In this document: positions 5,345 through 31,297 of the stretch, one piece after another
How the letters are laid out: each line of letters opens with the position of its first letter
Position numbering within the stretch: the stretch's first letter is position 1
IMG/VR virus record: IMGVR_UViG_3300042197_003845
Coordinates: 1 to 31,297 of that record
Source: a virus
Strand: one strand, 5' to 3'
Length of the DNA stretch: 31,297 bases
The notes under the pieces: model-generated
The model's input: the letters and a program-made list of their open reading frames with translations, nothing else
Told to the model about the DNA's origin: nothing
Database searches by the model: none
Made by a program: the position numbers and the translations under genes

Positions 5345-5599
5345 TTATTTCTTTTTGAACCAATAGTTGTGGGCAGATTCAAGAGACTTTTCATTGAGTT
5401 CGTAGCCTGACTTATCGGCTATAATGGCATCAACATGGCAATAAGGGCATATGCAGGTTTTTTGGTTATCTGTGTATTCAACTATTTCTTTTGACTCATA
5501 AATTTTGCCACAATACATACATCCAACTTTAAGTGAACTTTGCACTAGTTCACGATTTCTCATTGCAATATTAGCAAGTTGTGATATTGCTACTTTCAT
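5345..5599 (-). CDS. Small zinc-ribbon protein
   Basis: An 84-residue protein with two CxxC knuckles, CMYC (about 27-30) and CPYC (about 51-54), 20 residues apart, in a CMYCGKIYESKEI ... CICPYCHVDAII context. This is a zinc-ribbon arrangement likely to bind Zn2+ and possibly nucleic acid or protein. Its ATG overlaps the stop of the portal gene by four bases (ATGA), so it is translationally coupled to the portal. In T4 the gene after 20 is 67, but nothing here resembles gp67. Its stop lies two bases from that of the convergent plus-strand gene. The function is unknown. Confidence 0.75.
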   Translation of the reverse strand: MKVAISQLANIAMRNRELVQSSLKVGCMYCGKIYESKEIVEYTDNQKTCICPYCHVDAIIADKSGYELNEKSLESAHNYWFKKK

Positions 5600-8500
5600 T
5601 TATCACCAACGCTATAATCTATGTCTTCAATATCAGATTCATAGTCATAATTTTGTAGTTCTAGGTCATACTTCTTTATTTCATCTTCAGTTGGATCGGG
5701 AATGTTGGCAGGTTGTTCTCCCTCTGTTTTTGCTGCTGCTCCTCCTGTTGGCATTGGCATTTCGGGGCTTGGGCCAGAAGGTGGTTGTCCACCCGGTTCT
5801 GGCATAGCACTTGGGCCTCCTGCTGTCGCTCCTAGTTCCTGACCTTCCTGACCTTCTTCTTGTCCCGGTATTCCAACTCCAAGAAGTTGTGGGTTTTGTG
5901 CGAGAACTTGTAGCTTTAGGTCTTCAAGCTTTTGAATCTTGAGCCTTGCAAGCATTTCCTCTGCCTCGTCCTCATGATACTTGAGAATTTTCGTGTAAAT
6001 GTCATAATCTGACATAAGTTGTCCAGACTTGAGAGTTCCTGCATTTCCGTATCTAGCGTTCACAACTTCTGCACGGGAAAGTTCTCTCCAATCGCTTGGC
6101 GGTGTCATCTTGATTCTTAGATCACGATAATGTTCTTGAGGATACCCTCTCAGGGCAAGATGTCTTTCTGCTAATTCAAGAAGTCCGTCCTCAAAGTTGC
6201 TTTGCAGTCTTTCAATCATTCTTGCAAATTTTACATCTTGTGAAGACAATGTAATTCTTGTTGCGTTTGCATCTTCATTATTGAAATAATTCTTGGGGAA
6301 ATTGAGTGCTGTAAGAAGTTTGTTTCTGAAGTAGACTGCATCATCAATTTCGCCAAGATTTTCAGCGCCGGGAAGTGTGTCTATTCTTGTTCCGCTATTG
6401 GGCCTGATTGGCAACCAATAGTCTTCGTCTTGCGCTGGTGGCATCCATCTTTCATCAACTTGGTTTGCTCCTGTGCTTCCGCTATTGTTTGCTATCTTTC
6501 TTTTCCTGAATTGATCCTTCAAACGATCCATGAATGCTTCAGCCTTAAAAGGAGGTAATTGCCCTACATCTATATAAAATACCCGCCTCTCAGGCGCTCT
6601 CGTGTTATGCGAGCAGGTGCCATTTACCACAAAATTATGGGGTTTTCCGTCAGCTACTGTGATGTCATAAACCCTTTCAACACCATCTGGTTTTACTGAC
6701 CAAATATTTTCATATTGTGGTAATTCACGATGACTTATTGTAACATTCCAACTTTCTGTTGGTTTCATTTTTCTTGTTGGTGTTATGTTGTGTCCACCTT
6801 TTCTTTTTCTGTTTCCGATCTTTCCGCTACAAAGTCCAATGCTGTGCCATATTTCTTTTATGTCTTCTACAAGATTTTTGTTGCAAAGTTCGATTGTTGA
6901 GAACCACAGTCCAGACTTAGTGTGTCTTTCGCATCCATCAGCGTCTGAAATACCTTCTACTAGTGCTTTTCTGATTGATTTATCAGCATTGAAAGCCCAA
7001 CTTGGTATTCTCTTCTTATACTTGTTTGGAATATAACCAAGAGCTAAAAATACTTGACAAGCGATTTTGGATGAAACCATCCATTTTCCAACTACTGGAT
7101 TTTGGTTTCTTTTGTCTTTATGGAATGATACTTTTCCGAAGTATTTTTTAAGTAGATTTTTATAATATAGATTAAGCTGTTCATCGGTAGATGATGCAAA
7201 CCCTATTTGATTTCCGTGAACGAGCAATCCATCTCCAAGAAGGAATCCAAACAATCTTGCAAAGTCCTCATCGACTATTGATGGAAGGTTGATTCTTTCT
7301 GGATTAATTTCGCATTTATTGCAAATAATTATATCTTCATCAGAAAGATTGTAATTATTTTTGAATATATGGATGTCATTTTCAGAAATGGTTTTCCCAA
7401 GTTGTTTTTCATTTTTGTTGATTTTTTCTTTTCCAGATTCTGTTAGTGTGTAGCGTATTTCGCCAAAAATTCTTGGAATTTCTACTGGTACTGATTGATT
7501 ATTGATTACATTGACAAATTGGTCGCCATTTTTGATATCTTGGAGGTCAACATATTGAACTATGCCTTTTCTGTTAATGAGCATTGGGTGTGTTTTTGTG
7601 CCACGAATTTCAATATGTTGTGATTGTGCTTTGAGGATTTCCTGTTCTCCGTTATCAATCCAATCTGTAACAGAAGTTTCGCTTTGTTGTCCACCGGGAA
7701 GAACGCAGTAAACATTATCATTTACCTTGATGTCCTTGATATATTTGTAACCTTCTGTCGTTCTTACTCTGCTTTCTCCTGTTAAGCAAAGACGATAAAC
7801 AACCATAGCATCTTCTAGCAATCTAAGGCTATGTGCTGGGCCACGGGCTGGTTCTACTAGGCTTTGGCCGTATGGGTAGAATGTTTTTCTATCATCTCCA
7901 ATTCTGAAGTGAACTACTTGGCTTGGGGCGAATCTTATAGCTGTTGTTTGGTTGAGTTCTGTGTCAGTAAGTTCAGATGGAGAGCCTCTTACTATTGCTT
8001 GATAATCGGGGCCTTCTTTGGATTGTTGGAATTCAACTACTCTTCCTTTTACTGTTTCGATTCTGTACATAGTTTCAACAGGAAGTGGAAGGCAGCGATA
8101 GATTCCTTCTTTTGGATTTTCTGGATTGATGACAATTTCGACAAAGTGGTCTCCAAAAATGCAAAGATTTTTGAACCAAGTCCATCCATGTCTATTGAGG
8201 TTGAGCATTTTCCTGTTGAGGAAAAGAAATTCTATTTCTTCCTTGATTTCTGAGTTTTCTGTTGAAACCTTGAATATGTTGCCGTTTTCATCTTTTTGGC
8301 AGTTGTGGAGTATTACTGATTCTGTGGCGAAGCATTTGTGTTTTTCTACTGATAGGTCATAAACATCTTGTTCGGATGCGGGATATGCTCCCACAACTCT
8401 TCTTGTGTCTCCTAGTCCATGAAGTCTTTTAATTTCCCTGTATGCGAAACCTTCTTTGTGTAGGCGATCTTCAATAGTGTGCCAATCTAGTTCTATTTGT

Positions 8501-9288
8501 TCTGAAATTTGTCGTGTTGTGAGTCCGCCACCTATCATTCGACAGGCACGATTCACGATTTGATATTCAAGTGATGTTTTACCTGTTTTCCAGTCTTCGA
8601 TGAATTGTTTTTCGTGCATCCATCCTTTGTTGAATGATAATATTCTTGGGTATTGTGAGTGTTTTAGTTTATTTATATTTGTTTGTGCAGGAACTCTATA
8701 GAATGGCATGAGTTCGTCACCAAACTTTAGTTTTCCTGTTTCTGTCCAAGTTCCATTTTTTAGAAGAACACGATGGTCTTCAGTAGCTGTGTATGTTGTG
8801 CCATTGTCGAGTGTTATTTTGATTGTTGGTGCCTTTTTGACAATTCTGGGGTCAAAGGCCCAACCTAGGGTGAAGTCTTTTTTTTCAAAGTCGTAGCAGT
8901 AAACGAGAAATCTTTCATCTTTCTTGGTTTCGGCAAGTTCTTTGATGGTGATGAATCCGAAAGGTGTGGCTATTTTGGTGTCACCTGAAATGCAAGATTC
9001 GTCTGCATAAACTGTCATGGCCATTTCTATTTCTGGCACATTTCTGAGTCTTTCATACTCTTTGTAACGCATGGCACGATTAGACAGGGTAGTTGTGTCT
9101 ATCATGTCATTGGTTTGTCGATAGCTTGACATACCTCCGCTTACTTGTCCGTTGTTGATATCGGCACCAAGAGCTTCTGGTTGGCTGATTCCAGCGGAAG
9201 TGAATTGTCTAGGGTCTTTGCGACTAGACAAAGGGTCTGGTTCAGATGAGTAGCTGAAAAGTTTGAAAAAGTCAGACCAAATTGGCAT
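5596..9288 (-). CDS. 20: Portal vertex protein, gp20-like, containing two inteins
   Basis: Dodecameric portal through which DNA enters and leaves the head. The 1230-residue precursor consists of three exteins (1-98, 330-500, 896-1230) and two inteins (99-329 and 501-895). Removing the inteins leaves 604 residues, near the 524 of T4 gp20. Extein matches to the family include RLRNVPEIEMAMTVYADES before intein 1, and VVYRL joined to TRAPERRVFYIDVGQLPP across intein 2, then YFRNKLLTALNFPKNYF. The tail (about 1120-1200) is rich in Gly, Pro and Glu. Both inteins sit at highly conserved portal positions, so splicing is needed for infectivity. The start has AAGGG eight bases upstream. Intein DNA is more AT-rich than the flanking portal DNA, which suggests later acquisition. 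Confidence 0.95.
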   Translation of the reverse strand: MPIWSDFFKLFSYSSEPDPLSSRKDPRQFTSAGISQPEALGADINNGQVSGGMSSYRQTNDMIDTTTLSNRAMRYKEYERLRNVPEIEMAMTVYADESCISGDTKIATPFGFITIKELAETKKDERFLVYCYDFEKKDFTLGWAFDPRIVKKAPTIKITLDNGTTYTATEDHRVLLKNGTWTETGKLKFGDELMPFYRVPAQTNINKLKHSQYPRILSFNKGWMHEKQFIEDWKTGKTSLEYQIVNRACRMIGGGLTTRQISEQIELDWHTIEDRLHKEGFAYREIKRLHGLGDTRRVVGAYPASEQDVYDLSVEKHKCFATESVILHNCQKDENGNIFKVSTENSEIKEEIEFLFLNRKMLNLNRHGWTWFKNLCIFGDHFVEIVINPENPKEGIYRCLPLPVETMYRIETVKGRVVEFQQSKEGPDYQAIVRGSPSELTDTELNQTTAIRFAPSQVVHFRIGDDRKTFYPYGQSLVEPARGPAHSLRLLEDAMVVYRLCLTGESRVRTTEGYKYIKDIKVNDNVYCVLPGGQQSETSVTDWIDNGEQEILKAQSQHIEIRGTKTHPMLINRKGIVQYVDLQDIKNGDQFVNVINNQSVPVEIPRIFGEIRYTLTESGKEKINKNEKQLGKTISENDIHIFKNNYNLSDEDIIICNKCEINPERINLPSIVDEDFARLFGFLLGDGLLVHGNQIGFASSTDEQLNLYYKNLLKKYFGKVSFHKDKRNQNPVVGKWMVSSKIACQVFLALGYIPNKYKKRIPSWAFNADKSIRKALVEGISDADGCERHTKSGLWFSTIELCNKNLVEDIKEIWHSIGLCSGKIGNRKRKGGHNITPTRKMKPTESWNVTISHRELPQYENIWSVKPDGVERVYDITVADGKPHNFVVNGTCSHNTRAPERRVFYIDVGQLPPFKAEAFMDRLKDQFRKRKIANNSGSTGANQVDERWMPPAQDEDYWLPIRPNSGTRIDTLPGAENLGEIDDAVYFRNKLLTALNFPKNYFNNEDANATRITLSSQDVKFARMIERLQSNFEDGLLELAERHLALRGYPQEHYRDLRIKMTPPSDWRELSRAEVVNARYGNAGTLKSGQLMSDYDIYTKILKYHEDEAEEMLARLKIQKLEDLKLQVLAQNPQLLGVGIPGQEEGQEGQELGATAGGPSAMPEPGGQPPSGPSPEMPMPTGGAAAKTEGEQPANIPDPTEDEIKKYDLELQNYDYESDIEDIDYSVGDK
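6604..7788 (-). other. Portal intein 2 (395 aa) with LAGLIDADG homing endonuclease
   Basis: Protein-splicing element at portal residues 501-895. Block A is CLTGESRVRTTEG with Cys1. Block B is GTKTHPML (intein residues about 63-70). The two endonuclease helices are LFGFLLGDGL (about 179-188) and LVEGISDADG (about 276-285), each with its acidic residue. Block F is RVYDITVADGKPHNF (about 372-386), and block G ends TCSHN, followed by Thr896 as +1 nucleophile. A bipartite LAGLIDADG enzyme would cut intein-less portal alleles and drive copying of the intein. Both active-site Asp residues are intact, so the endonuclease may still work. Confidence 0.95.
8302..8994 (-). other. Portal intein 1 (231 aa), no LAGLIDADG endonuclease
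   Basis: Protein-splicing element at portal residues 99-329. Block A is CISGDTKIATPFG with Cys1. Block B is TATEDHRVLL (intein residues about 69-78). Block F is VYDLSVEKHKCFAT (about 211-224), and block G ends SVILHN with the penultimate His and terminal Asn. The +1 extein residue is Cys330. No LAGLIDADG, HNH or GIY-YIG motif is visible. Instead residues of about 157-185 (LTTRQISEQIELDWHTIEDR) look like a helix-turn-helix. It could be a reduced intein keeping a DNA-binding remnant. All splice residues needed for standard class 1 splicing are present, so it should be active. Confidence 0.92.
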
Positions 9289-9351: not shown

Positions 9352-9963
9352 ATGAAAAAAGTTTTGTTTTTATGTACTCATTTGGGATCGGGATCACAAG
9401 CATTATATGATGTCTTGAATAAAAACAGTCGTATACAAGGATATAAATCAGAAAATTCTAATGTATATTATACAAATTTTAATTTAATTAATTTATTATC
9501 ATGCAAGCATAAGTTGAGGGGATCATCAGCGATATACATGGATGAGATAAATTATAATTTTCAAATAAATTATAAAAATTTGTCAAAAAGTTGTAAGTTT
9601 GTATTTTATGTAAGAAGTCCTATTGATTCCATAAGTGATATAGTAAGGAATCATGGTTATAAGCCATTTAATGCTTACAGGTATTATTCATTTAGGTTGA
9701 GGCGATTGTGTGAGATGTCGAACTTTTTGTCTAATTCTGTTTTATTGACGCATGAGGACTTTGTGCTTGGAAAGGGGCTTGATTTGATTGAAAAGCATTT
9801 GGAATTGAAGTTGCCATTGGAATTTAGTTTAGATGAATTGAGTAAGTACAATAAAAAGTCTAATACTGACTTGCTGGCACCTTTTCTTCGGGATCAGGTT
9901 TCTGATTGTTATGAGCGATACCTGTATTTTTTGAGAAGTCGATTTCATTATCAGATACGATAA
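9352..9963 (+). CDS. Sulfotransferase-like P-loop protein
   Basis: A 203-residue protein probably in the sulfotransferase superfamily, which transfers sulfate from PAPS to hydroxyl or amine groups. The N-terminal strand and loop KKVLFLCTHLGSGSQALYD fit the 5'-phosphosulfate loop. FVFYVRSPIDSISDIVRNHG (about 84-102) fits the 3'-phosphate site, with Arg88 and Ser95. These are family patterns and not proof; small phage members are poorly characterised, and the target is unknown. DNA is extremely AT-rich (9541-9600 has 9 G/C in 60), unlike the adjoining portal gene, which suggests transfer. A TATGAATA string lies about 35 bases upstream. Its last 104 bases overlap the convergent carboxypeptidase gene. 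Confidence 0.6.
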   Translation: MKKVLFLCTHLGSGSQALYDVLNKNSRIQGYKSENSNVYYTNFNLINLLSCKHKLRGSSAIYMDEINYNFQINYKNLSKSCKFVFYVRSPIDSISDIVRNHGYKPFNAYRYYSFRLRRLCEMSNFLSNSVLLTHEDFVLGKGLDLIEKHLELKLPLEFSLDELSKYNKKSNTDLLAPFLRDQVSDCYERYLYFLRSRFHYQIR

Positions 9964-10909
9964 TTGAAACAAGTGGAGCTTCTTTGATGAAAAGGTTAAT
10001 GGCATCTTTTGTTATTTTGAATTCTTTGTAAATTTCCTCTTGTGTTGGTTTGTCTTGGTGTGAGCCGAATTCAATAACAACGGCCATTGATCCATTTCTG
10101 TAGAACCAGTCTACTTCTGTTCCTGATATAGGTCTGCTGTATAGTTCGGCGCAGGGTATTTTTTTATAGCCACATATTTCGGCCATTCTTCCTACTATTC
10201 TGACATAATCTTTGTCATGTTGTGATAGTCCGTAGTTGTCACCGAATGGTGTTAGAAGAAGTTTTCCAAAAGTGTGTCCAGATATAACGGCTTTTGGTCT
10301 AATTTTCCAATAGAAGTCAATAAGTGCTTCAACGCTTGGGCTACTTTTGTGTTGTGGAAATTTGGGGCTTGAGAAGTCACGATTGGGATCAACGCCATCA
10401 ACAAATCTTGATATAGGATAGCTATCAGGAGAAACAACTGGAATGAAGTAAAGGTCTCTTGAGTTGATGATTTCAGTTATTTCATTATTTTTGTTATATC
10501 CATCTAGAAGTGTTCCTATGTATGCCATTGTTATTCCTGCTGCTAAAGGTTCATTTCCATGAATGCAGGAAGTATAAAGAACAGTTGGTTTGTTTTTGAT
10601 ATCTTTTTGGTTAATTCTGATGTAGTATAGGTCTGTTCCGCTTTTTGTTTTTCCGTAAACTCCTACTTCTACAATATCTGGTGCTTCTTCTTTCCACTTT
10701 TTTAGATGTTCTATTGTTTGTGGGTAAGAGAGGTGATCTGGTACTTTGTTTGAAATATCATATGTTTTGAGATATTGTTTTTGTTCTACTTTTTTGACAA
10801 GAAGTTTTTTGGGTTCTTCTGTTTTTGATTTTATTTTTTGGTTGTAGACAAAAAGGGTTATAGCTGCCAGTATTGCAATTGTTGCTAACTTTATGATATT
10901 ATTTTTCAT
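9860..10909 (-). CDS. Membrane-anchored M14 zinc carboxypeptidase
   Basis: A 349-residue metallocarboxypeptidase expected to remove C-terminal residues from peptides or peptidoglycan stems. The start MKNNIIKL at 10909 has AAGGAG four bases before the ATG. Residues of about 5-24 (IIKLATIAILAAITLFVYNQ) form an uncleaved signal or membrane anchor, placing the enzyme outside the cytoplasm. Zinc ligands are His117 and Glu120 in CIHGNEPLA and His212 in SGHTFGK. PNRDF (about 175-179) supplies substrate-binding Asn/Arg, and Glu280 in VVIEFGSHQDKP is the catalytic base. A Lys-rich linker (about 30-45) follows the anchor. The 3' end overlaps the sulfotransferase-like gene by 104 bases in antisense. All active-site residues are present. 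Confidence 0.88.
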   Translation of the reverse strand: MKNNIIKLATIAILAAITLFVYNQKIKSKTEEPKKLLVKKVEQKQYLKTYDISNKVPDHLSYPQTIEHLKKWKEEAPDIVEVGVYGKTKSGTDLYYIRINQKDIKNKPTVLYTSCIHGNEPLAAGITMAYIGTLLDGYNKNNEITEIINSRDLYFIPVVSPDSYPISRFVDGVDPNRDFSSPKFPQHKSSPSVEALIDFYWKIRPKAVISGHTFGKLLLTPFGDNYGLSQHDKDYVRIVGRMAEICGYKKIPCAELYSRPISGTEVDWFYRNGSMAVVIEFGSHQDKPTQEEIYKEFKITKDAINLFIKEAPLVSIIVSDNEIDFSKNTGIAHNNQKPDPEEKVPASQY

Positions 10910-10934
10910 AACACTCCTTGTCATAAAAAACCCT

Positions 10935-10952
10935 TGCAATCTATATATTGCA
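10935..10952. promoter_or_regulatory. Inverted repeat around CTATAT in a divergent gap
   Basis: TGCAAT (10935-10940) and ATTGCA (10947-10952) are perfect inverted arms around CTATAT. The element lies between the carboxypeptidase start (10909) and the small plus-strand gene (10954). Read on the minus strand it includes AATATATAG, about 30 bases before the carboxypeptidase ATG. It could be a promoter with an overlapping operator. Confidence 0.45.
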
Positions 10953-18297: not shown

Positions 18298-18726
18298 TCA
18301 TAGGCCACGAAGAATTTGTCTGAAGTGGTCAACATCTTCCCTGCTATGTTCTACTTGTTTTTCCAAGAATATTTCAAGCCATTGTCCATCGACTCCACCT
18401 AAGTCTTGTGCCTGCTTAATTCTTTCCACATAATTTTTTACAACTTGTGATTCAATTTCAAGGGCGTATTGAATAATTTCCTTTGGTTCTGAAAATTTGA
18501 AAAAATCATTGGATTCTTCTGTTGGGCTACCTCCCAATCCAATGATAACATCAGAAAATTCGGTAATATGTTTCATTTCGCTAGAGGCGTGTGCTAGTAG
18601 AAGTTCTTTATATTCGTGACAATGAAGGCCGACCACTTGGCTTGCATGAAAAAGGTAAAATCTTAGGTGCATCCATTCATTGTTTAAGTCTTCGTTTAGA
18701 AGATTAATCATTTCATTTTTAGTCAT
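18298..18726 (-). CDS. Ferritin-like diiron protein (bacterioferritin type)
   Basis: A 142-residue four-helix protein. Candidate metal ligands appear at ferritin spacing: Glu17 in NEWMHLRFY, Glu50 and His53 in SSEMKH, Glu92 in ALEIESQV, and Glu122/Glu126/His127 in FLEKQVEHSRED. Such proteins oxidise and store iron or protect DNA from oxidative damage. The length is a little below full bacterioferritin (about 158), and no clear haem-binding Met is apparent. GAGGAAAAG precedes the ATG, which overlaps the stop of the aminopeptidase gene (ATGA), so the two are translationally coupled. Whether it forms a cage cannot be told from sequence. Confidence 0.82.
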   Translation of the reverse strand: MTKNEMINLLNEDLNNEWMHLRFYLFHASQVVGLHCHEYKELLLAHASSEMKHITEFSDVIIGLGGSPTEESNDFFKFSEPKEIIQYALEIESQVVKNYVERIKQAQDLGGVDGQWLEIFLEKQVEHSREDVDHFRQILRGL

Positions 18727-19859
18727 GGCTTTTCCTCAAAGAGTGTGTCTTTTTGTCCGTGGTCATGATCCAAGTTCATTTCCTTAAATGAACTTAAATT
18801 AAACTCAACCTTTTCAACTGCGTTGCACACATTCCACGCAAGTTCAAAGCCGTACTTGGATATTTTTTCAAGACCATCATAATTGATCCTGTCAGAAGTA
18901 TCTTTTGGTGTGTGGTAATATTCATGCAATCCAGTATGCAAGAAGGCCACAGGTACTTTCTTATTATAGAAAGGAGCATGGTCACTTCCACCTGAACCTC
19001 TCAAAGTTATATTTTTTGCAAAAGAATACTTTTCACTTAATTGTTTGATTATAAAAGCTATGTCAGGAGAACTTGTTCCATCGCTCATGGCAAGAGTTTT
19101 TGTTTTTCCAAGATAACCAATCATGTCCATATTGAGCATGAAAATATGTTTATTGATATCAGGATTTCCTTTTGGAAACTTCGGATTATTGACATAATGC
19201 AAACTACCTTTAAGTCCCATTTCTTCTGCCGAAAAAGCCATGAAAACAATAGTTCTTTTGTTTTGTCCTTTGAGGACTGTAAAGGCTTCTGCTATTTCCA
19301 ACAAGGCAACAGAGCCACTTGCATTGTCATCCGCTCCATTATGGATTCTTCCACCTCCAAATCTGCTGTAGGTGGGGCCATATCCAATGTGATCCATATG
19401 AGCGCCAACAACAATAACTTCATCTTTTAGAGCAGGATCATTGCCTTCAATCCATGCGTATATGTTGTTTGTGAAATCATCTCCTATTTCATTTTTTGGG
19501 CCGGGATTAATTCTTTTTATGTTAAATTTATCATATTCGGTTTGAAGGCCATAGCTTTCAAACTTCTTTTTAAGGTATTCTGCTGCTAGTTTATTGCCTT
19601 TTTTTCCAGACATCCTTCCTTCTAACTGATTTGATGCAAGGTATTCAAGGTTTTCCCTCAAATCAATTCTGTCAATTTTCGAGAGAGCATCGGTTACAGT
19701 AAGTTTTGGAACTTCAGGCTTGGATTCTGGTTTTTTTTCCAACTTTTCTTCAAAAGGACTTTCAGGATGTTTTTCAATATCAGAAATTTTTGATTTTGAT
19801 GATAATAATATAACAATTATGATTCCAAGAGTTAGTATCAATATGTGTAGCTTTTTCAT
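18723..19859 (-). CDS. Membrane-anchored M28 zinc aminopeptidase
   Basis: A 378-residue di-zinc aminopeptidase. The start MKKLHILIL at 19859 has AAGAGGCG upstream. Residues of about 3-21 (LHILILTLGIIIVILLSS) form a signal anchor, followed by a Lys/Glu/Pro-rich linker to about 55, so the catalytic domain should be periplasmic. Metal and catalytic residues are complete: His154 and Asp156 in GAHMDH, Asp177 in NGADDNASG, Glu212/213 in AEEMGLKGS, Asp245 in LNMDMIG, and His316 in YYHTPKDT. It is coupled to the ferritin-like gene downstream and diverges from the terminase gene. Confidence 0.9.
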   Translation of the reverse strand: MKKLHILILTLGIIIVILLSSKSKISDIEKHPESPFEEKLEKKPESKPEVPKLTVTDALSKIDRIDLRENLEYLASNQLEGRMSGKKGNKLAAEYLKKKFESYGLQTEYDKFNIKRINPGPKNEIGDDFTNNIYAWIEGNDPALKDEVIVVGAHMDHIGYGPTYSRFGGGRIHNGADDNASGSVALLEIAEAFTVLKGQNKRTIVFMAFSAEEMGLKGSLHYVNNPKFPKGNPDINKHIFMLNMDMIGYLGKTKTLAMSDGTSSPDIAFIIKQLSEKYSFAKNITLRGSGGSDHAPFYNKKVPVAFLHTGLHEYYHTPKDTSDRINYDGLEKISKYGFELAWNVCNAVEKVEFNLSSFKEMNLDHDHGQKDTLFEEKP

Positions 19860-19882
19860 GATCGCCTCTTTTTGCTGATAAT

Positions 19883-19911
19883 CCAAACTATATATTATTA
19901 TGCTAGTTTGG
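19883..19911. promoter_or_regulatory. Inverted repeat around TATATA between M28 and terminase genes
   Basis: CCAAACTA (19883-19890) and TAGTTTGG (19904-19911) are perfect eight-base inverted arms with a 13-base AT-only-like spacer holding the end of CTATATATT. The element lies 24 bases before the M28 start and 29 before the terminase start. It could be a shared promoter-operator or a hairpin in the terminase leader. Confidence 0.5.
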
Positions 19912-24582: not shown

Positions 24583-25479
24583 ATGATTAAAAGAATGTTT
24601 TATGCATTATTGTCTCTTTTAATTGTAATCAATCCAATTAATTCATCCCAAGATGTCCCCAAATTTAAGTATATTGATCCTTTTGACAATATGCCAATAT
24701 TGGAGCCTGATCATTTTGGAAATGATAATCCTGTTCCCATCGAAAAGAGAGGACTAGAATATAGAAAATATCTTGCACCTTCTGTGAAAATACTAGTTCC
24801 TATGGCATCTGGTTCTGGAACAATTATACATCATGATAAAAACAAAAATATAGCTTATGTTGCAACTTGTGGTCACTTATGGACAGAAGGCATCATGGGA
24901 GTAGAAGAAGGCAAAAAAAGAAATATCAAATGCAAAATTATTGTCTGGTATCATAATGACAGAAAACTAGATTCTCCTAAATCATATGACGCAAATCTTA
25001 TATTTTATAGTCATTTGGAAGGACAAGATACTGGACTTGTGACATTTGTGCCTGATTGGGAACCCAATGTTTTTCCAATAGGGCCAAAAGAATATAAATA
25101 CAACAAAGGTCAATTTGCTCATTCTGTTGGATGTGATAGGGGAACAGAAGTGGCTCATTATGATGTGGAGATGATTGGAATTGAAGGAGATAATTTAATT
25201 ACAAAAAGAAATTCTCCTAGGCCGGGGAGAAGCGGTGGTGGACTTATGGATGATAATGGATTTTACATAGGAACTTGTTGGGCAACTCAGTATCCTGATG
25301 GTACAGGTAAAGGTTTTTTTACTCCTCTCTTCATCATTCATAAATTTTGGTCTAAGCAAAAAGGATATGAATTTTTGTTAGAACAAAAAGATGTAATTGG
25401 AACAGCTAAAGAAATTAAAATCAAAGATAGAACAAATTCCAATGAGGCATTTAAGCCCGATTATATTTTGTTGCCCTAA
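24583..25479 (+). CDS. Secreted trypsin-like serine protease
   Basis: A 298-residue protein with a signal peptide (MIKRMFYALLSLLIVINPIN, cleavage near 21) and a chymotrypsin-fold domain. The triad is His98 in VATCGHLW, Asp149 in GQDTGLVTF and Ser217 in RPGRSGGGLMDD, all in the right order and context, with GSGTIIH (about 77-83) as the usual strand before His. It should act outside the cytoplasm. GGAG precedes the ATG. A TATATA core lies upstream. The stop overlaps that of the convergent nuclease gene (CTAA). The target is unknown. Confidence 0.85.
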   Translation: MIKRMFYALLSLLIVINPINSSQDVPKFKYIDPFDNMPILEPDHFGNDNPVPIEKRGLEYRKYLAPSVKILVPMASGSGTIIHHDKNKNIAYVATCGHLWTEGIMGVEEGKKRNIKCKIIVWYHNDRKLDSPKSYDANLIFYSHLEGQDTGLVTFVPDWEPNVFPIGPKEYKYNKGQFAHSVGCDRGTEVAHYDVEMIGIEGDNLITKRNSPRPGRSGGGLMDDNGFYIGTCWATQYPDGTGKGFFTPLFIIHKFWSKQKGYEFLLEQKDVIGTAKEIKIKDRTNSNEAFKPDYILLP

Positions 25480-30740: not shown

Positions 30741-31297
30741 TTACTTTGATGTTTCCGCTGCTATGAGACATCCTCTTGCAACGCTGTAAAGAGGATCGGA
30801 TGGCTTGAAGATATTGCCAACTTTGATTGGCAATTCAACCTTGCCAATAGTGTCCTTGAATAATTCTGTAAATCCATTTGGAGAACTGGTTCCACCAGCT
30901 ATCACGACATCAATTTCACCATCAGTTCTTACTGTTTTATTGAAATCGCTGAATCCTTTTTTCAAACCATTCACAGTATGTTCAATCATAAGTTGATATT
31001 GAGTGTGAATAGCTCTTTCCACAAGATTGGTTGCAGGCTTTGCCAAATTAATTTTTGTTTTTTCTTTGTTAATGAAACTAATGCTTTCACCAGTTGCTTT
31101 TGCCGCTTGTCTATCAATCCAGTCTCCTGAATTGACAATAGCAAATGTGAATACAGGAGAACCATACATTGCATAACAAATGTTTACCATTCCCGCACCG
31201 CAATTATGAATAGTAAGTTGTGGCCCACTAAAACTATGATCTTCTTCTACTTGTAAATCATAAACAATTCCTTGATACTCATCATGTTCAATTTTTT
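30741..31297 (-). CDS. Actin-like ATPase (C-terminal part) interrupted by an intein; 5' part outside window
   Basis: The frame is open to the right edge. From 31202 to the stop the product is an actin/HSP70-fold C-terminal part: CGAGMVNICYAMYGSP with the second phosphate loop, VNSGDWIDRQAAKATGE, then VVIAGGTSSPNGFTELF as the adenosine motif, and a final helix SVARGCLIAAE. Phage actin-like proteins build filaments for DNA segregation or positioning. Before 31202 the frame reads as the end of an intein. A Met at 31190 would give a 149-residue fragment, but that is not the true start. The exact family (ParM, MreB or other) cannot be told from this part. Confidence 0.82.
   Translation of the reverse strand, partial: KIEHDEYQGIVYDLQVEEDHSFSGPQLTIHNCGAGMVNICYAMYGSPVFTFAIVNSGDWIDRQAAKATGESISFINKEKTKINLAKPATNLVERAIHTQYQLMIEHTVNGLKKGFSDFNKTVRTDGEIDVVIAGGTSSPNGFTELFKDTIGKVELPIKVGNIFKPSDPLYSVARGCLIAAETSK
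31203..31297 (-). other. C-terminal end of a third intein, in the actin-like gene
   Basis: The translated segment contains GIVYDLQVEEDHSF, a textbook intein block F, and ends QLTIHN, a block G with penultimate His and terminal Asn, directly followed by Cys as +1 nucleophile. The intein's N-terminal part and any endonuclease lie outside the window. It interrupts the conserved phosphate-binding loop of the actin-like protein. Confidence 0.9.

Follow-up and report, generated by a model that had tools for sequence, protein, structure and literature searches.

Under the homing-cycle model, the parts of an intein that do not serve splicing lose their purpose after fixation and decay. Among the closest described systems, the DnaB gene of Mycolicibacterium smegmatis holds a nuclease-less intein (DnaBi1) and a nuclease-bearing one (DnaBi2) (PMC6195587); splicing of TliVMA depends on its inserted nuclease domain, a Hint-nuclease mutualism (PMC8966425); haloarchaeal pol-IIa mini-inteins are widespread, mostly vertically inherited and have often lost the nuclease (PMC4071816); mycobacteriophages of cluster C1 have an intein in the portal gene (PMC5050341); and TerL of crAss-like phages is a packaging gene with two inteins (PMC7886860). 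Here we analyzed a 31-kb IMG/VR fragment (IMGVR_UViG_3300042197_003845, 31,297 nucleotides, "the window" below; mean guanine plus cytosine (GC) content 36%), whose portal gene contains two inteins. Judging from sequence comparisons, their histories are opposite: intein 1 dates far back, has passed vertically and is fixed across a clade of huge phages, whereas gains and losses affect intein 2 alone. What is surprising is not that there are two inteins but that one of them, intein 1, is fixed and has no recognised nuclease, yet retains an extra domain.

As in M. smegmatis DnaB, a nuclease-less and a nuclease-bearing class-1 intein sit at different conserved sites of an essential gene, but DnaBi1 is a class 3 mini-intein (PMC6195587), whereas intein 1 is class 1 by its residues, has 231 amino acids (aa) and an extra helix-turn-helix (HTH)-like domain, and interrupts a phage virion protein. 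The archaeal VMA and Pol inteins (TliVMA, PI-TkoII; PMC8966425) likewise combine a Hint fold with an HTH-like accessory domain, but they retain the LAGLIDADG domain, whereas the accessory-type domain of intein 1 stands alone, with no recognised nuclease. At haloarchaeal pol-IIa large, mini and empty states coexist (PMC4071816), whereas at site 1 the surveys described below revealed neither an empty site nor a shrunken or nuclease-bearing intein. The cluster C1 phages belong to another phage group with sporadic inteins, and the available part of that report describes no fixed clade-wide intein (PMC5050341); the crAss-like inteins are of the Hint-Hop type in a terminase, with no fixed/mobile contrast in the available part of the article (PMC7886860). 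In a partial survey of the literature, portal inteins and double-intein genes were known, and no nuclease-less intein fixed across a phage clade with a selected accessory-type domain was found; the main text of the huge-phage paper does not mention inteins. The locus thus offers an internal control within one gene of one phage clade (a sporadic nuclease intein beside a universal nuclease-less intein with a selected extra domain), and turns the question of whether inteins come to benefit their hosts, or can no longer be separated from them, into a directly testable one.

The portal gene and its two inserts

The gene is one uninterrupted open reading frame at 5596-9288 on the minus strand, encoding 1230 aa. 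It matches Pfam Portal_T4 (PF07230, E 1.3e-68) in two stretches whose gaps are the inserts, and phrog_213 (E 4.7e-67); the spliced sequence matches the T4 gp20 structure 3ja7 (E 5.9e-34). By the profile match and the similarity to solved gp20, the predicted product is a T4 gp20-type portal. Its neighbors are genes for a gp21-like protease (1669-2355) and a gp23-like capsid protein (2-736). The window portal groups with a huge-phage clade, with relatives on 527-kb and 533-kb contigs and on the 595-kb record LR756511.1 (clade relatives sit on contigs of ~530-600 kb). The features of the gene are as follows.

5596..9288, minus strand: T4 gp20-like portal gene, precursor 1230 aa, predicted spliced product 604 aa (single open reading frame; PF07230, phrog_213, 3ja7)
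8995..9288, minus strand: N-extein, 98 aa, ending in ...YADES (outgroup alignment)
8302..8994, minus strand: intein 1, 231 aa, class 1 by its residues (Cys1, TxDH, His-Asn, +1 Cys), nuclease-less, fixed in the clade
8689..8994, minus strand: intein 1, Hint N-terminal part, residues 1-102 (AlphaFold model; VIA-align to mini-inteins)
8404..8688, minus strand: intein 1, middle domain, residues 103-197, a conserved beta-hairpin and helix followed by variable HTH-like helices
8302..8403, minus strand: intein 1, Hint C-terminal part, residues 198-231, ending in VILHN
7789..8301, minus strand: middle extein, 171 aa, CQKD...VVYRL (outgroup alignment)
6604..7788, minus strand: intein 2, 395 aa, class 1 by its residues with a LAGLIDADG endonuclease, sporadic in the clade
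7228..7263, minus strand: intein 2, first LAGLIDADG-type motif FARLFGFLLGDG (read from the sequence; conserved in 8 relatives)
6934..6975, minus strand: intein 2, second LAGLIDADG-type motif IRKALVEGISDADG (read from the sequence; conserved in 8 relatives)
5599..6603, minus strand: C-extein, 335 aa, starting with TRAPERR

Insert 1 comprises precursor residues 99-329 (window 8302-8994, 231 aa), with junctions ADES/C...VILHN/CQKD, and insert 2 residues 501-895 (window 6604-7788, 395 aa), with junctions VVYRL/C...CSHN/TRAP (slashes mark the junctions). A sequence-only reading had placed two inteins with complete splice blocks at these junctions in conserved portal sequence, within 6604-8994, a range that covers both inteins and, between them, the middle extein (7789-8301). 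Intein profiles, the Hint fold and the empty portals of outgroups (e.g. ADES/TLKN) bear this out, and joining the exteins without the inserts gives the 604 aa it had computed. Outgroup portals empty at both sites include those of Microcystis phage Mel-JY01, Vibrio phage Bakedbeans and Flavobacterium immuto phage, and among viral contigs, 54 of the 55 distant T4-like portals that could be read at site 1 are continuous there; the remaining one, L110, itself carries inteins. The profile search and portal alignment proposed as a check therefore agree: the inserts match intein profiles, and distant portals read through both sites.

Intein 1 matches Pfam Intein_splicing above the cut-off (2.9e-12) as well as TIGR01445. 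Cys1, T71, D73, H74, H230 and N231 are invariant across 99 distinct intein-1 sequences, and a Cys follows the intein at +1 in 74 of 74 portals. Its AlphaFold model (from 52 sequences) has a Hint fold with a predicted local distance difference test score (pLDDT) of 96.5, closest to the SspDnaB and MtuRecA mini-inteins (1mi8, 3ifj; VIA-align Z 21.8, root-mean-square deviation 1.3-1.5 over 131-136 residues). Its splice residues, this fold and the in-frame insertion with empty homologues assign it to the predicted class-1 inteins. No homing-nuclease family was found among the 25 Pfam families most matched by 25 intein-1 members (E up to 1), a search that would miss a nuclease of an unknown type. 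Intein 1 also aligns end to end (residues 1-231 on model positions 78-310, E 9e-13) with NCBIfam NF052663 (RtcB_rel_intein2), an intein-containing RtcB-family protein whose intein seems equal in length; the host protein differs, and no RtcB gene with the NF052663 intein was found in 299 genomes of one phylum. As a side observation, the non-catalytic Cys33 (window 8896-8898) is conserved in 69 of 74 copies and is a possible redox partner of Cys1.

For intein 2, the Intein_splicing match of the window copy (3.2e-7) is below the curated cut-off, and the best among relatives is 1.2e-13; TIGR01443 was also matched. LAGLIDADG_3 is matched at 23.8 bits (cut-off 22.5), and by 7 of 8 members. C1, T64..H67 and H394-N395 are invariant (n=8), and the +1 residue is Thr or Ser in 12 of 12 carriers. 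With two motifs between the splicing blocks and class-1 splice residues, it classifies as a LAGLIDADG intein. The profile searches thus support the contrast in architecture that had been proposed (231 aa without a recognised nuclease, and 395 aa with LAGLIDADG).

As predicted from its sequence, then, the portal precursor holds two complete class-1 inteins. The two would be cis-splicing elements that mature the precursor, and the proposed dependence of the portal on two splicing events is supported accordingly as a prediction.

Two further points of the sequence-only reading fared less well. Its GC counts (17 of 60 in a stretch of intein 2 and 29 of 60 in one of the extein) are exact, but the later entry deduced from them is weakly founded, because intein 2 as a whole (35.2%) lies at the window mean and the portal extein (40-43.5%) is the GC-richer part. 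The GC content of intein 1 at third codon positions also equals that of the adjacent exteins, and we rejected the argument from base composition to a recent entry. The same reading called a portal with two inteins uncommon; this is not the extreme, since related portals carry three and a phage TerL with two has been published (PMC7886860).

Distribution of the two inteins

Intein 1 is present in all 75 loci readable at site 1, which were collected by extein-based scans using portal peptides only and not the intein. We searched 2.9 million viral contigs for an empty site 1 (MTV, any residue, A/S/T/P followed by DE, a small residue, any residue, Q...) and found 0 such stretches, for a pattern tied to particular flanking codons, compared with 102 occupied sites having the same upstream codons and the intein start. 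Of these, 94 hold complete copies, all of 228-235 aa; a contig end truncates 7 others, and a frameshift disrupts the last one. Distances between intein-1 copies correlate with those between exteins (r=0.84); among carriers of intein 2, the extein-distance correlation is 0.90 for intein 1 and 0.47 for intein 2. Since every readable locus is occupied, no empty site appears and the distances track those of the portal, intein 1 is old and vertically inherited in the clade. In the 527-kb and 533-kb relatives it is the sole Intein_splicing match. Separately, the 595-kb relative contains a 1304-aa frame (LR756511.1:444492-447146) with two further intein matches.

Intein 2 occupies site 2 in only 12 of 74 distinct portals. 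Explaining its presence on the portal tree takes at least 10 gains or losses, of which well-supported branches force 9, and the carriers show no significant clustering (61 of 500 shuffles gave a count as low). L090 and L207 carry it and the near-identical L209 does not (extein dS, the synonymous divergence, 0.18); L063 and L067 carry it and L016 does not (extein dS 0.39); the nearest relatives of the window portal are without it. Close pairs of a carrier and a non-carrier showed no co-conversion tract flanking site 2. From its distribution, intein 2 is very probably a typical LAGLIDADG homing intein, mobile and inserted at the near-invariant motif R(L)/TRAPERR. In 12 of the 62 portals free of intein 2 the +1 residue is Val instead of Thr or Ser. 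By established intein chemistry, Val is unable to act as the +1 nucleophile. Such a change would block splicing of an invading intein, and these portals are possible resistant alleles; resistant mcm alleles offer a comparison (PMC10643990).

The middle domain of intein 1

Intein 1 is not reduced to a Hint domain, which in a mini-intein has ~130-160 aa. Between the Hint halves lies a folded domain of ~95 residues, a beta-hairpin, a helix and more helices arranged HTH-like, which is predicted well by itself (pLDDT 92.6) and has the conserved motif Q-[FY]-P-R...G-W..E-[RK]-Q-F..[DE].W. Over the 99 sequences the entropy is 1.17 bits for the hairpin and 0.87 for the helix after it, in which G124, W125, E128 and W135 are invariant, compared with 1.33 for Hint-N and 2.3 for the HTH helices, and the putative recognition helix (2.28 bits) is among the least conserved parts. 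The pooled ratio of nonsynonymous to synonymous rates (dN/dS; 19 close pairs) is 0.084 for residues 103-140 and 0.110 for 141-195; the Hint parts give 0.089 apiece and the extein 0.063. Given this purifying selection and the fixed length, the domain is not a decaying relic. The nearest folds in the PDB are HTH DNA-binding domains of the AraC/NarL type, and Pfam HTH profiles match only some members; by sequence, nothing convincing was found in the PDB or NCBIfam.

On balance, we favor a history in which intein 1 is ancient and immobile, its middle domain is kept by selection, most likely for splicing, and intein 2 is mobile. We are fairly confident of one part, that intein 1 invaded ADE[SA]/C in the ancestor of the huge-phage clade, became fixed and was inherited vertically as an immobile element. 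With no recognised nuclease, its ~95-aa middle domain has nevertheless been neither decayed nor deleted. By analogy with TliVMA and MvuTFIIB, the conserved hairpin-helix may now be a structural part of the splicing unit (a mutualism of Hint and accessory domain), the mechanism we rank first, at a little short of even. Loss of the middle domain would then cost splicing and hence the essential portal, and the variable HTH would be a relic or a weak DNA-binding arm. The conserved part lies outside the putative DNA-recognition helix, which favors a structural role in the intein over one shared DNA target and sets the ranking of the explanations below.

Several points weigh against this history. 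The dN/dS values were obtained by simple counting from pairs that overlap, and short regions were pooled for them. The identification as HTH is weak (Foldseek E no better than 0.16, best VIA-align Z 5.9, Pfam matches mostly marginal). A diverged empty allele would be missed by a pattern that needs particular flanking codons, and fixation is expected of any mini-intein that cannot be precisely deleted, with no special role needed.

Two alternatives rank next, each of which we consider unlikely. In one, intein 1 is an ordinary fixed mini-intein whose middle domain is a mere linker, persisting because exact deletions are rare and the population no longer offers an empty allele for recombination. 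The homing-cycle model after saturation predicts just such fixation, with purifying selection on splicing (PMC8966425, PMC4071816), and the HTH helices are indeed variable. However, a free linker should drift and shrink, whereas all 94 complete copies keep to 228-235 aa, the middle domain and the Hint parts have equal dN/dS, conservation is higher in the hairpin-helix than in Hint, and the related portals of L110 and LR756508.1 carry inteins of ~130-136 aa without such a domain.

In the other, the HTH domain of the precursor or of the excised intein binds DNA, and gates portal splicing to replication or packaging or regulates transcription. The HTH-like fold, a mean net charge of +7.6, the purifying selection and the universal retention would fit, and there is a precedent in M. 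smegmatis DnaB, where the nuclease-less intein splices conditionally and has a nuclease-bearing neighbor (PMC6195587); the poorly conserved recognition helix speaks against one shared DNA target, and a DNA site was not found. Its strongest form, that intein 1 is domesticated and obligate, with the HTH-like domain coupling portal maturation or gene expression to phage DNA, is a shade more doubtful; if true, splicing would be a checkpoint in huge-phage head assembly.

It is improbable that intein 1 still homes, with the middle domain as an unrecognised or degenerate HNH-type module or with a nuclease acting in trans. A profile of Hint-N plus the middle domain aligns with HNH inteins (SP-15, LR756501.1, LR756508.1, L110, L076) through residue 139 and stops near the expected start of the HNH core, pairing QFPRI..GWihERQFvDdW of intein 1 with YeQI..W..vHRMV..yF; only 2 of 150 column shuffles reach that far, but 10 of 150 reach the score, which is not significant. 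The HNH core (HH.D.N..NN...NL) is absent in all aligned intein-1 copies, H127 is not invariant, the middle domain alone gave no match to HNH inteins in local profile comparison, and the pattern search of viral contigs found no vacant site to home into. Few more HNH inteins turned up in phages, plasmids and 299 genomes; in the genomes the HNH profile matched intein 1 alone. The alignment is no more than suggestive of descent of intein 1 from an HNH intein that lost its core. Finally, the idea that the segments stem from assembly errors or belong to the ordinary portal sequence can practically be dismissed: nothing was found in favor, 54 of the 55 readable distant portals are continuous at site 1, intein profiles and the Hint fold match, and the structure recurs in independent assemblies.

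Further inteins and neighboring genes

Other portals carry more inteins. The portal of L110 (L110:1705-6792) contains three, a 136-aa intein at Y/SDET, a LAGLIDADG intein at site 2 and a 499-aa HNH intein at LPGG/SNLGE, and that of LR756508.1 (484 kb; L084:2030-6190) contains three at other sites; of these six positions only the second of L110 equals a window site. We considered the 136-aa intein of L110 as a shrunken site-1 intein and rejected it, as its exteins show that Y/SDET lies upstream of site 1, by four codons. In L076 an HNH intein occupies LPGA/SNLGE. The T4-type portal thus appears as an intein hot spot in huge phages, and for annotation the spliced portal would have ~600 aa, though the genes encode up to ~1700.

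A search for bacterial hosts of intein 1 gave one contig from a metagenome-assembled genome (MAG), itself encoding a phage portal: the 77-kb RXKI01000042.1 of a Neisseriaceae MAG (L240/L421), with a 1259-aa portal gene holding both inteins. Either a phage was binned wrongly or the contig gives a hint of the host.

Running off the window end, 31203-31295 (minus strand) encodes the C-terminal end of a third intein (...LTIHN/CGAGMVN) in an actin-like gene (Pfam Volactin, 30741-31202). The site is mostly intein-free in relatives (GISFGAGM or GISCGAGM), with intein ends in L299 (of the same phage type as L300), L306 and L311. Further genes in the fragment encode an M14 zinc carboxypeptidase (9860-10939), a ferritin-like protein (18298-18726), an M28 aminopeptidase (18723-19886) and a trypsin-like protein (24583-25479).

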